DNA from: Amycolatopsis rubida
GTDB lineage: Bacteria > Actinomycetota > Actinomycetes > Mycobacteriales > Pseudonocardiaceae
Assembly (NCBI RefSeq): GCF_900115345.1
Contig: NZ_FOWC01000001.1
Location: 186,001 to 250,000 of the forward strand
Direction of reading: 5' to 3'
DNA: 64,000 nt
Shown: positions 19,920 through 38,739 of the stretch, in pieces
How positions within the stretch are numbered: position 1 is the first letter of the stretch
How the letters are laid out: every line of letters begins with the position of its first letter
The notes under the pieces: model-generated
The model's database searches: none
The model's input: the letters and a program-made list of their open reading frames with translations, nothing else
What the model was told of the DNA's origin: nothing
Made by a program: the position numbers and the translations under genes

Positions 19920-21344
19920 TCAGTGCAGCGGACGGAACCCGACTCGCTCGGCATCGGCGGCACTGCGGAACCAGACCTCAGCCACCATCTTCGGGAACTG
20001 CGGCGAATCCTCCCCGCAATACCGCAACGCCGTCACGCTCGCCTTCACCGTGAAACCCTCCGCCGGACGACCGCCGCCCGGCCGCGGCATCGCCGAACCC
20101 GGGCCGAACGGTCCCGGCGGCACCACGTCATCCGCGGTCTGCCGCGCAGGCGGTGGCTCCGGAGCGGCCATCGCGGCCTGGTTCGGCTGCACGGACGGCT
20201 CGAACAGCGAACCGCTGTGCCCACCGGCGAGGTCCGGTTCGCGGCGCTCCACCGGACGCATCGACGGCTGGATCGGCCGCGGCGGGTCGAAACCGCCGCG
20301 CGGGGATTCACGGCGCTGTCGCTTCGGCAAGCCCTGGCCGCCTTCCGCGGTGTCCTCTGTGGACTCAGCGGCGGACTCGACGCCCGGGATCAGGTGGTCG
20401 GTCGACGAATCCTCTTCGAGGTGGCCGACGGCCGGTTCGGCGGGTTCCTCGAACGGCGACCGCTGCGCCGTGTCCGGCTGGTTGAACCAGTCCGGTTCGG
20501 GTTCGGTCGCACGACCCGGGCCCGGACGGAACAGCGAGACCGGCTCGGACTCCGAAGCGGTGCTGTCCACCGGAGCCGGGTCGAGTCGTCGCTCCAAAGA
20601 GGACGGACCGTCGGCCGGTTCGGCGAGCTGCCGGCTCGGCTCCTGTTCGGCGAGACTCTCCGGCTCGGCGTGGTCCGCGGCGGGAACGTCGGCCGGTTCC
20701 GGAATCCGGTGATAGCCGCTGTCGTGCTCGTCCACCGGTTCGGGAATCCGGTGATAGCCGCTGTCCTGCTCGTCCGCCGGTTCCGCGACGCGGTGGTAGC
20801 CGCTGTCGTGGTCCTCGGCCGGTTCCGCGATGCGGTGCGAACCGGTGTCGACCGGCTGCAGGTACTCGGTGGCCGCGGCGCGGTAGGCAGAACCAGAGTC
20901 CTCCGGAACGCTCTCAGCCGGTGCACTGTCGAAAAGCCCGTTCGCCGCTTGGTGTTCGCGAGCCTCGGCCTGCGCGAACGCCTCATCGACGTCGTCCTCA
21001 GGAGATTCCGTGGTGTCCACTGCGGAGGCAGCCGCCGGTTCCGGAGCCGTGCGGTACTCGGCGTCGTACTCGGCTTCTGGCTCGAAAGCGCTCGTCGCCT
21101 GGATGACTTCCGTCTGAGCGTGCTCGCGGCGGTCTCTGGTCCAGTCCTCCGCGGGCGGCAGCACCGCGGTGCGCGCGGGTGTACTGGCCGCGGCGCGTGC
21201 CGTGTCGGCGTGCGCGCTCGCCAGTTCCGTTTCCAGTTCGCGTACCCGCTTGCGCGCCGGACGTGCCAGCACCAGCCAAGCGATGACCGCACCGACGATG
21301 AAGGCCAGCAGGCTCCAGAGCCACACCTGCCCGAAAATGGACAT
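19920..21344 (-). CDS. Membrane-anchored protein with C-terminal sunset domain (ArfC-like)
   Basis: 474 residues. A single membrane helix at residues 8-27 (LWSLLAFIVGAVIAWLVLA) is followed by a short coiled coil, then about 350 residues of acidic, Pro/Glu/Ser-rich, probably disordered sequence. The last ~45 residues (ASVTALRYCGEDSPQFPKMV, then AEVWFRSAADAERVGF) resemble the sunset domain found in mycobacterial ArfC. Near residues 175-220 there are four close copies of a DSGYHR(V/I)(A/P)EP repeat. It lies 12 bases after the polyprenyl synthase gene, probably co-transcribed. Function is unknown; a role at the cell envelope is a guess from topology. Confidence 0.65.
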   Translation of the reverse strand: MSIFGQVWLWSLLAFIVGAVIAWLVLARPARKRVRELETELASAHADTARAAASTPARTAVLPPAEDWTRDRREHAQTEVIQATSAFEPEAEYDAEYRTAPEPAAASAVDTTESPEDDVDEAFAQAEAREHQAANGLFDSAPAESVPEDSGSAYRAAATEYLQPVDTGSHRIAEPAEDHDSGYHRVAEPADEQDSGYHRIPEPVDEHDSGYHRIPEPADVPAADHAEPESLAEQEPSRQLAEPADGPSSLERRLDPAPVDSTASESEPVSLFRPGPGRATEPEPDWFNQPDTAQRSPFEEPAEPAVGHLEEDSSTDHLIPGVESAAESTEDTAEGGQGLPKRQRRESPRGGFDPPRPIQPSMRPVERREPDLAGGHSGSLFEPSVQPNQAAMAAPEPPPARQTADDVVPPGPFGPGSAMPRPGGGRPAEGFTVKASVTALRYCGEDSPQFPKMVAEVWFRSAADAERVGFRPLH

Positions 21345-35652: not shown

Positions 35653-36515
35653 TACTTCTTCTCCACTTCTGGAAGCGGAACGTCCTGCGCGCCCGGTGCG
35701 GTCCAGCCGCGGTCGGCGGCGAGCTGCGCGCCGCGCAAAGTCTCGACCGCTTGCGACGGACCGTCCACGGCACTGCGGTAAGCCGCCTCGTCCTCAGGCC
35801 AGAACCCGGCGAGCTGCCGCTCCGCGCCCTTGAAGTCGGTCAGCGCCGCACCGCGCGTCGGAGCGGGCTTCTTGCCTGCCTGCAACGCGTCCACGAGTGC
35901 GACCGCCTGCTCCGGCGTCTGGTTGTCGAAGTACTCGTAGTTCACCTGGATGACCGGACCGAGGTCGCAGGCCGCGAGACATTCCGCGTGCTCCAGGGTG
36001 ACCGAGCCGGCCTCGCCCGGCGTGCCCGCGGTTTCCTCGTGCCCCAGCGGCTTTTCCTCGGAACCGAGATGCGTCTGGAGCTTCTGGTAGATGTCGTCGC
36101 CACCCAGCGCCGCGCACAGCGTGTTGGTGCAGACGCTCACCAGATGCTCGCCGCACGGACGGCGCTTGTACATGGTGTAGAACGTCGCGACCGCGCTGAC
36201 CTCGGCGTCGGTCAGGTCGAGATGCCGCGCGCAGAAGGCGATGCCTTCCTGGCTCACGTAGCCCTGCACCGACTGCACCAGGTGCAGCATCGGCAGCAGC
36301 GCCGAACGCGACATCGGGTACCGGGCGATGATTTCCTTCGCCTCGCGGTGCGTGTCGGCGTCGAACACGTCCACCGCCGGTGTGTCGGCGAGAAGGTCCT
36401 CGGCCAGCGACGGGTCGGGCGCGATCGCGGCGACATCGGTGTCGGCTCCCGCGGCCGCGTACGTCTTCGTCGCGTCGCGCGGCCCCGGCTCCGGGACTGC
36501 GGTCGGGTTCGTCAT
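35652..36515 (-). CDS. nuoE: NADH-quinone oxidoreductase subunit E, with C-terminal extension
   Basis: 287 residues, longer than the ~165 of E. coli NuoE. The thioredoxin-like 2Fe-2S domain occupies about residues 55-215, with [11 protein letters not shown] and CLAACDLGP supplying four cysteines. About 55 residues precede it and about 75 follow ([20 protein letters not shown]), which I read as a lineage-specific extension. It passes electrons within the NADH module. ATGA links it to nuoD. Confidence 0.95.
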
Positions 36516-37843
36516 CGGTCAACTCCCCCCAGAACCGGGTCGATCGAGGCGATCACGACGACCAGGTCGGCGACCAGGCCGCCTTCGGCCATCGCGGGCA
36601 TCGCCTGCATGTTCACGAAACTCGGCTCCCGCAGGTGCACCCGCAGCGGACGGGTGCCGCCGTCGGACACCAGGTGCGCGCCGAGTTCGCCGCGCGGCGA
36701 TTCGACCGGCGCGTAGACCTGGCCCGGCGGCACGTGGAAGCCCTCGGTGACGAGCTTGAAGTGGTGGATCAGGGATTCCATCGACTGGCCCATGATCTTC
36801 TTGACGTGGCCGAGCGAGTTGCCCATGCCGTCGCTGCCGATGGACAGCTGCGCGGGCCAGGCGATCTTCTTGTCCTCCACCATGACCGGGCCCGGCTCGG
36901 CCATCTTCGCGACCTGCTTCATGATCCGCAGGCTCTGGTGGATTTCCTCCAGCCGCAGCAGGTACCGCGCCCAGCTGTCCGCGTCGGTCGAGGTCGGCAC
37001 GTCGAACTCGAGTTCGTCGTAGCGCGAGTAGGGCTCGGTCTTGCGCAGGTCCCACGGCAGGCCCGCGGCGCGCAGCACCGGGCCGGTGATGCCGAGTTCG
37101 AGGCACGCGTCCAGCGGCAGCACGCCGACGTCCTTGAGCCGGTTCCGCCAGATCGGCTGACCGGTGAACATCTTGTCGTACAGCGGAAGCCGCTTGTCCA
37201 TGAGCTTGCAGAAGTCGAGGACCTTTTCCGTCCAGTCCTCGGGGAAGTCCTGGGCGAGCCCGCCGGGCCGGATGAACGCGTGGTTCATCCGCAGGCCGGT
37301 CAGGTACTCCAGCAGGTGCATGGCTTCTTCGCGCTCGCGGAAGCCCAGCGTCATCGCGGTGGTGGCGCCGAGGTCCATGCCGCCGGTCGCGATGAACACC
37401 AGGTGCGAGGTGATCCGGTTCAGTTCGAGAAGAAGCACGCGCAGCAGTTCCGCACGCGGCGGGGCCTTGATGCCCAGCAGTTTCTCGACGCCGAGGCAGT
37501 AGCACATCTCGTTCGACAGCGGGGCGAGGTAGTCCGCGCGGGTCACGAAGGTGACGCCCTGGGTCCAGTTGCGGAACTCCGCGCTCTTCTCGATGCCGGT
37601 GTGCAGGTAACCGACGACCGCGCGCAGCTGCGTGACCGTTTCGCCTTCCATCTCCAGCACGAGCCGGAGCACGCCGTGCGTGGACGGGTGCTGCGGGCCC
37701 ATGTTGATGACCATGCGGTCGTCGTGCTGGGCGTCGCCGAGAACTTCGTCCCAGTCCCCGCCGGAGACGTGGTAGACGGGGCCTTCGGTGGTGTCCCGGA
37801 CTTCCGCGTACTCGGCTTCCGTCGTTTCTTCGTTGATGGTCAC
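36512..37843 (-). CDS. nuoD: NADH-quinone oxidoreductase subunit D
   Basis: 443 residues from GTG, with GGAGG eight bases upstream. It resembles the large subunit of NiFe hydrogenase but without metal cysteines. The [11 protein letters not shown] segment includes the His near the quinone headgroup, and the conserved VESPRGELG segment lies near the C-terminus. The start overlaps the stop of a 23-codon frame created by a tandem duplication that separates it from nuoC, the only long gap (134 bases) in the operon. Confidence 0.96.
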
Positions 37844-37911
37844 GAGTGCGACCTCCGCTGGTGTCGACAGGGTCGGGATTTCCGCGCCCGACGTGGCAGA
37901 TCACGGCTCAT
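37840..37911 (-). CDS. Candidate coupled small reading frame 2 (23 codons) before nuoD
   Basis: ATG at 37911, preceded by GAAGG, opens a 23-codon frame ([17 protein letters not shown] and six more) whose TGA overlaps the nuoD GTG as GTGA. The peptide is basic and probably not functional in itself. The frame may carry ribosomes to the nuoD start. It results from the 70-bp duplication at 37861-38000, and translation is not proven. Confidence 0.35.
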
Positions 37912-38000
37912 GAGTAGGACCTTCGCTGGTGTGTCGACAGGGTCGGGATTTCCGCGCCCGACCTGGCAGATCACGGCTCATGAGTAGGACCTTCGCTGGT
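37861..38000 (-). repeat. 70-bp tandem duplication at the nuoC-nuoD junction
   Basis: 37861-37930 and 37931-38000 are identical except for one base (G at 37893, C at 37963). Each copy carries a Shine-Dalgarno sequence and an ATGA, and each resembles the nuoC 3' end plus the nuoD ribosome binding site. Partial copies flank the pair on both sides (CGACCTCCGCTG at 37849 and GGGATTTCCGCGCCC after 38008). Confidence 0.9.
37901..37981 (-). CDS. Candidate coupled small reading frame 1 (26 codons) after nuoC
   Basis: The ATG overlaps the nuoC stop (ATGA) and has GAAGG eight bases upstream inside nuoC. The 26-codon frame begins [17 protein letters not shown] and ends 11 bases past the ATG of the second small frame, so the two overlap. 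It is probably a by-product of the duplication that keeps ribosomes moving; a function for the peptide itself is unlikely. Confidence 0.35.
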
Positions 38001-38739
38001 CCGGCGGCGGGATTTCCGCGCCCTTGTATTCGACCGGGATCCCGCCGAGCGGGTAGTCCTTGCGCTGGGGGTGGCCGTCCCAGTCGTCCGGCATGAAGAT
38101 GCGGGTCAGCCCGGGGTGGCCGTCGAAGATGATGCCGAACATGTCGTAGGCCTCGCGCTCGTGCCAGTCCGCGGTCGGGTAGACCGGGACCAGCGACGGG
38201 ACGTGCAGGTCGTCCATGTCCATGGTGACTTCGAGCCGGATCCGGCGGCGGTAGGTCATCGACAGGAAGTCATAGACCGTGTGCATTCGCTGCGGGACGT
38301 CCACGCCGTAGTCGACGCCGGTGACCGCCACCAGCATTTCGAAGCGCAGGCCTGGGTCGTTGCGCAGCACTGTGGCGATGGCGGCGAGGTGCTCGCGGCT
38401 GACGTAGAAGGTGATCTCGCCGCGGTCCACGGTGGTCTGGAGGACCGCCGACGCCGGGATCTTGTTGTCCGCCAAGGCGGCCATGAACTCGTCGGCGAAC
38501 TCGTCGAACCAGCCGCCGTACGGGCGCTCCGCGGGCGGCGGGCTGTAGGCGGGCAGCCGCAGGCCGCCGTAACCGGAGGTGTCCCCGCTGCCGCGGACAC
38601 CGAACATGCCCTTGCGCTCGCGGCCGGCGACGACCGGTTCGGCCGCGCCGGGGCCGTGCGCTTCGAGTCCTGCTTCGGGCCGCTCCGCGCTGGACTGCGG
38701 GCCGCCGGTCTCGGGAGTCTCTTCGGGGTTCTCAGGCAC
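37978..38739 (-). CDS. nuoC: NADH-quinone oxidoreductase subunit C
   Basis: 253 residues. The first ~75 residues are Pro/Glu/Gly-rich and probably disordered. The conserved 30-kDa subunit domain follows and ends with [20 protein letters not shown], then [20 protein letters not shown], the family signature. It sits beside NuoD in the quinone-reducing module. The last codons (DQRRSYS) lie inside the sequence that has been duplicated downstream. Confidence 0.95.

Follow-up and report, generated by a model that had tools for sequence, protein, structure and literature searches.

The nuoC-nuoD junction of Amycolatopsis rubida, between two genes for respiratory complex I, is occupied by a short tandem duplication, raising the question of where the inserted DNA came from and whether ribosomes can still be handed from nuoC to nuoD across it. 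Seven of the nine named loci among the NuoD relatives belong to Amycolatopsis, the closest being A. dendrobii DR6-1 (99%), and comparison with relatives offered a way into both parts of the question.

Tandem copies and small frames in A. rubida

Tandem Repeats Finder reported a repeat at 37850-38000 with a period of 70 and 2.2 copies, whose score of 274 led the 48 rows, the next being 198. Reading of the minus strand likewise gave the two 70-bp copies with one mismatch that the first-pass annotation had placed between nuoC and nuoD, the differing letters being G at 37963 and C at 37893 (minus-strand letters). The remainder of that description was confirmed by the sequence and the list of open reading frames, namely two small frames of 26 and 23 codons, Shine-Dalgarno (SD)-like sites before the starts, and overlaps of 4, 11 and 4 nt along the chain nuoC, mini-ORF 1, mini-ORF 2 and nuoD (see the table). 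The middle joint (37901-37911) measures 11 nt in place of the usual 4 because copy 1, at 70 nt, carries 2 additional nucleotides, which shift mini-ORF 1 to the next stop, 11 nt into mini-ORF 2; the last joint, between mini-ORF 2 and nuoD, has the 4 nt. Since an in-frame GTG opens a 44-codon version of mini-ORF 2, a one-step route that skips mini-ORF 1 is also possible.

Features of the nuoC-nuoD junction of A. rubida, in window coordinates
Feature	Coordinates	Strand	Remarks
nuoC	37978..38739	minus	ends in ATGA (37978-37981); NCBIfam NuoC, 366.3 bits
nuoD	36512..37843	minus	GTG start; NCBIfam NuoD, 554.8 bits
70-bp copy 1	37931..38000	minus	begins within nuoC 3' end
70-bp copy 2	37861..37930	minus	one mismatch vs copy 1 (37893)
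mini-ORF 1	37901..37981	minus	26 codons; start/nuoC stop overlap 4 nt
mini-ORF 2	37840..37911	minus	23 codons; stop inside nuoD GTGA (37840-37843)
44-codon version of mini-ORF 2	37840..37974	minus	in-frame GTG at 37974, 3 nt past nuoC stop
SD-like GAAGG	37990..37994	minus	precedes mini-ORF 1; from sequence
SD-like GAAGG	37920..37924	minus	precedes mini-ORF 2; from sequence
SD-like GGAGG	37852..37856	minus	precedes nuoD; from sequence

The window, meaning the whole stretch of 64,000 nucleotides that was analysed, sits in a 1.8-Mb contig of a draft assembly of 45 contigs, and a draft of this kind could carry a second copy as an assembly artefact. This is extremely unlikely here, as the copies differ at one base, there is a 2-nt difference between the copy junction and the last one, and other genomes also have two to four units, one of them (G063) in one contig. 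Elsewhere in the window, a 42-bp repeat (20687-20827, 3.4 copies) runs in frame, as 14 codons of the DSGYHRI.EP type, within a minus-strand ORF at 19920-21344.

Junctions of relatives and the chance of bridging

The survey covered 249 parsed nuoC-nuoD junctions. The GTDB family of A. rubida, Pseudonocardiaceae, supplied 210, of which 80 were from its own genus, and the other 39 came from different families in the same order. All 80 genus genomes were included, every one of which matched the junction, together with 60 of the 62 genomes of genus g30 (two had no NuoC match), 30 further family genomes taken from the best-scoring matches, 40 picked for spread, and 39 of 40 genomes from other families (G397 was left out); a sample of this composition gives a share of relays that should not be read as a rate. 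The nuoD starts were inferred, the path in G366 and G367 uses an upstream GTG, and four g30 loci that missed the second motif were kept on the strength of the first.

Direct junctions, with the nuoD start at the nuoC stop (-4, -1 or 0), accounted for 185 of the 249, and relays, in which one to four small frames span a spacer of 13-232 nt, for another 60. Relays were found in 9 of the 80 genus genomes (71 direct), 20 of the 60 g30 genomes (39 direct, 1 neither), 6 of the 30 further family genomes (24 direct), 19 of the 40 chosen for spread (20 direct, 1 neither) and 6 of the 39 from other families (31 direct, 2 neither). Four junctions fitted neither class: G443 (+11), G496 (+2), G364 and G321. 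The G364 locus (L291), with an 83-nt spacer after nuoC and no bridging frames, is the only clear exception in the whole set. In G321 (L195), scored as 'none', nuoC runs past its usual end after a frame change just upstream, which may be genuine or an error in the sequence, and the ATGA letters are still present. Two other arrangements were seen at single junctions or in single genera: the 217-nt spacer of G177 (L207) is one 74-codon frame with 4-nt overlaps at both ends, and genus g27 (L226, L227, L228, L273, L274) has a different junction repeat, in frame inside one mini-ORF (PPKYVFPLEAR-type).

The direct genus junctions all overlapped by 4 nt (68 GTGA and 3 ATGA), and this overlap is kept in the nearest relatives of A. 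rubida, giving good support to the earlier proposal that an ancestral ATGA/GTGA overlap of nuoC and nuoD was later expanded. Overlapping stop and start codons, as expected of termination-reinitiation coupling, were present at the A. rubida junction and across the surveyed relays, where 122 of 130 joints were exactly 4 nt. The first-pass annotation had named the gap in close relatives as the comparison to make, and connected frames crossed all nine genus spacers. Tandem copies whose frames do not connect, which it had named as the refuting case, were not found among the parsed tandem-unit genomes; the single unbridged spacer is that of G364, from another genus of the family.

The two neighbouring junctions served as controls. 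Gaps at nuoB-nuoC ranged from -8 to +7, plus one 'far' (n = 60: 30 Amycolatopsis and 30 g30), and nuoD-nuoE was at -4 in 22 of the 24 measurable loci (the others at -14 and +3), 39 loci having ended before that junction and 8 named loci possibly repeating genomes already counted. Within this limited sample, relay-type inserts were found neither at nuoB-nuoC (60) nor at nuoD-nuoE (24).

Small frames might connect without selection if the junction is merely prone to slippage, since stops are few in G+C-rich DNA and a duplication spanning the junction brings its own start and stop. We compared the spacers with a null in which they were shuffled, their length varied one base either way, and chained by the same rule as the real data; another null shuffled them at fixed lengths. 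Shuffled non-fused draws bridged at a mean rate of 0.49. Among the origins, of which about 21 were grouped by eye (G364 was treated separately despite the likeness of its end to one group), 20 of 21 were bridged, with P = 1.9e-5 for at least 20 when one event was counted per origin and fusions were left out. Treating in-frame fusions as coupled and multiplying over the first 10 origins gave a product of 0.012 under the permissive rule and 0.001 under a strict 4-nt rule. Because about half of the non-fused shuffled spacers bridge and the fusion-inclusive product is 0.012, the claim of coupling is carried by the ensemble of origins and not by A. rubida alone. These same two figures speak for neutral slippage, but the bridging of nearly every origin, the predominance of 4-nt joints and the lengths found in the unit family (47, 50, 59, 62, 65, 68 and 71, all 3n-1, as 4-nt joints need) argue against it, and we regard it as unlikely.

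Origin of the repeat unit

The unit of A. rubida belongs to a family, grouped by eye, that 19 of the 140 genomes parsed in two genera carry (6 of the genus and 13 of g30). Six of the nine genus spacers are of this one type (G000, G022, G055, G063, G073 and G077), and other types fill the remaining three (G005, G028 and G067). Tandem relays have four units in G284 (59 bp), three in G276 (50 bp) and two each in G315 (38 bp) and G063 (62 bp). When a sequence-only model of the unit was run against the family, 340 of 390 genomes gave a match; among the matches listed, most were the nuoC tail alone, but genus g30 also showed tandem rows, and G113 had a second match. In G209 (L246) the model matched two contigs, at positions 23-72 and 24-72 with 24.8 and 22.8 bits.

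Four parts make up each unit: start site and head, nuoC-tail DNA in another frame as the core, a linker, and an SD-bearing nuoC end. Of 17 units measured, one per genome, 16 had a linker of 11 nt (G267 was mis-cut). The corresponding stretch of nuoC, taken with a fixed cut but with cores that line up, has 7 nt, and this common addition of 4 nt points to a single origin for the units of both genera. Each unit was nevertheless closest to the nuoC tail of its own host, with a mean rank of 2.2 against 8 expected, a closeness that none of 20,000 permutations attained; the result held when permutation was confined to genera. A single origin across two genera together with closeness to the own nuoC tail would be explained by exchange or conversion with that tail. 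On a tree of the flanking nuoC and nuoD DNA the presence of the unit was patchy, needing at least five changes, and the unit was absent from the rows nearest to A. rubida (G048, G016, G018, G036 and G033); both repeated precise loss and local transfer fit this pattern. The earlier view of an expansion at the junction thus stands as to the ancestral overlap and is refined as to timing, as the unit predates the A. rubida genome and is common to a second genus, and only its doubling looks recent.

The units of the two genera have in common an arginine-rich core (RAR.SR), which might suggest that the mini-ORF products are functional, either as a small protein or as a regulatory leader peptide. However, this core is the nuoC-tail DNA in another reading frame, bridging peptides from separate origins were unrelated by eye, and most parsed relatives are without the unit, making a function of the peptide improbable.

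A dispersed repeat was rejected for the A. rubida genome, where near-full unit matches were the two copies and the nuoC tail only (E <= 0.01) and searches gave weak, partial matches besides the junction. Matches listed for other genomes outside the junction were also partial and weak. The closest known kind is the mycobacterial interspersed repetitive unit (MIRU), which is reported to hold a small frame that is coupled to the adjacent gene at -4 nt (PMC12548453) and to occur as three 77-bp units at senX3-regX3 of H37Rv (PMC4213456). Compared by layout, the nuoC-nuoD array has the same short repeats, also in tandem, and the same internal frame coupled at -4 nt, and may work like a MIRU. MIRUs, as described there, are interspersed and apparently mobile, whereas the nuoC-nuoD unit lacks dispersal over many loci in the A. 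rubida genome, is found at its own junction only and looks built from it; we therefore do not class it as one.

Probable translational coupling across the junction

Reinitiation is reported to lose efficiency sharply as the distance grows in gene pairs of E. coli and Haloferax, with a reduction of 80-90% or complete loss at +38 nt in three E. coli pairs, and pairs overlapping by 4 nt are described as enriched among subunits of heteromeric complexes (PMC10666635). The nuoC-nuoD relays have the 4-nt overlaps of such ATGA/GTGA termination-reinitiation pairs but stretch the junction to as many as five consecutive overlaps (G284; three in A. rubida). Another parallel is the short upstream ORF that delivers ribosomes (PMC12548453): the proposed role is again delivery and not the peptide, but the nuoC-nuoD frames lie between two operon genes, in tandem, and appear to be born from their junction. 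We found no description of a nuoC-nuoD relay in the literature searched.

Because nearly all sampled relatives with inserts show the same end-to-start joining, the small frames likely pass ribosomes between the genes, and the relay may, as the first-pass annotation proposed, preserve stoichiometry. To judge from sequence, the intervening DNA would likely break the hand-over from nuoC to nuoD if the small frames were absent. Each small frame is predicted to take over the ribosomes that end the previous frame and to hand them to the next start, the peptides themselves being presumably dispensable. The array would have originated by a tandem duplication reaching across the nuoC tail into the nuoD start, its copy number changing and its units being homogenised through exchange with the nuoC tail, and lengths that disconnect the frames would be removed by selection. 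The best reading, based on sequence comparison, is thus a minisatellite born at the junction and tolerated for the coupling of translation that each unit likely maintains; for A. rubida we consider it probable that an older junction unit was recently doubled and that its small frames keep nuoD translationally coupled to nuoC. Points counted against coupling include, besides the high rate of bridging by chance, the unbridged spacer of G364, the 11-nt joint of A. rubida, and the GTG that would bypass mini-ORF 1.

Expression of nuoD could instead be set by a structured RNA or an internal promoter between the two genes, as copy 1 contains a short inverted repeat (GGTCGGG/CCCGACC) and promoter activity is reported for the MIRU array in senX3-regX3 (PMC4213456). 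Folding gave no signal in eight units (z-scores from -0.80 to +1.53), no Rfam match exceeded its cut-off (Actino-pnp was sub-threshold, at 18.5 bits vs 47.7), and a simple consensus, covering the sigma-70 promoter type alone, found no sigma-70-like or terminator-like site in 37700-38200, so that such an element is quite improbable.

Given coupling, the number of units might itself matter. Each added mini-ORF may cost a share of the reinitiating ribosomes, and the gain or loss of units would then tune the NuoD:NuoC ratio stepwise, a rheostat that we consider rather unlikely; if true, complex I would be tuned in a heritable, reversible way by nothing more than the operon's own junction. Translational coupling through the small frames, the reading we prefer, makes this junction a natural experiment, opened in about 21 by-eye origins and crossed by end-to-start frames in 20, where hand-over and scanning of ribosomes between operon genes can be directly tested against each other. 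It also suggests how tandem repeats may grow within the operon of a multi-subunit complex without breaking the operon.
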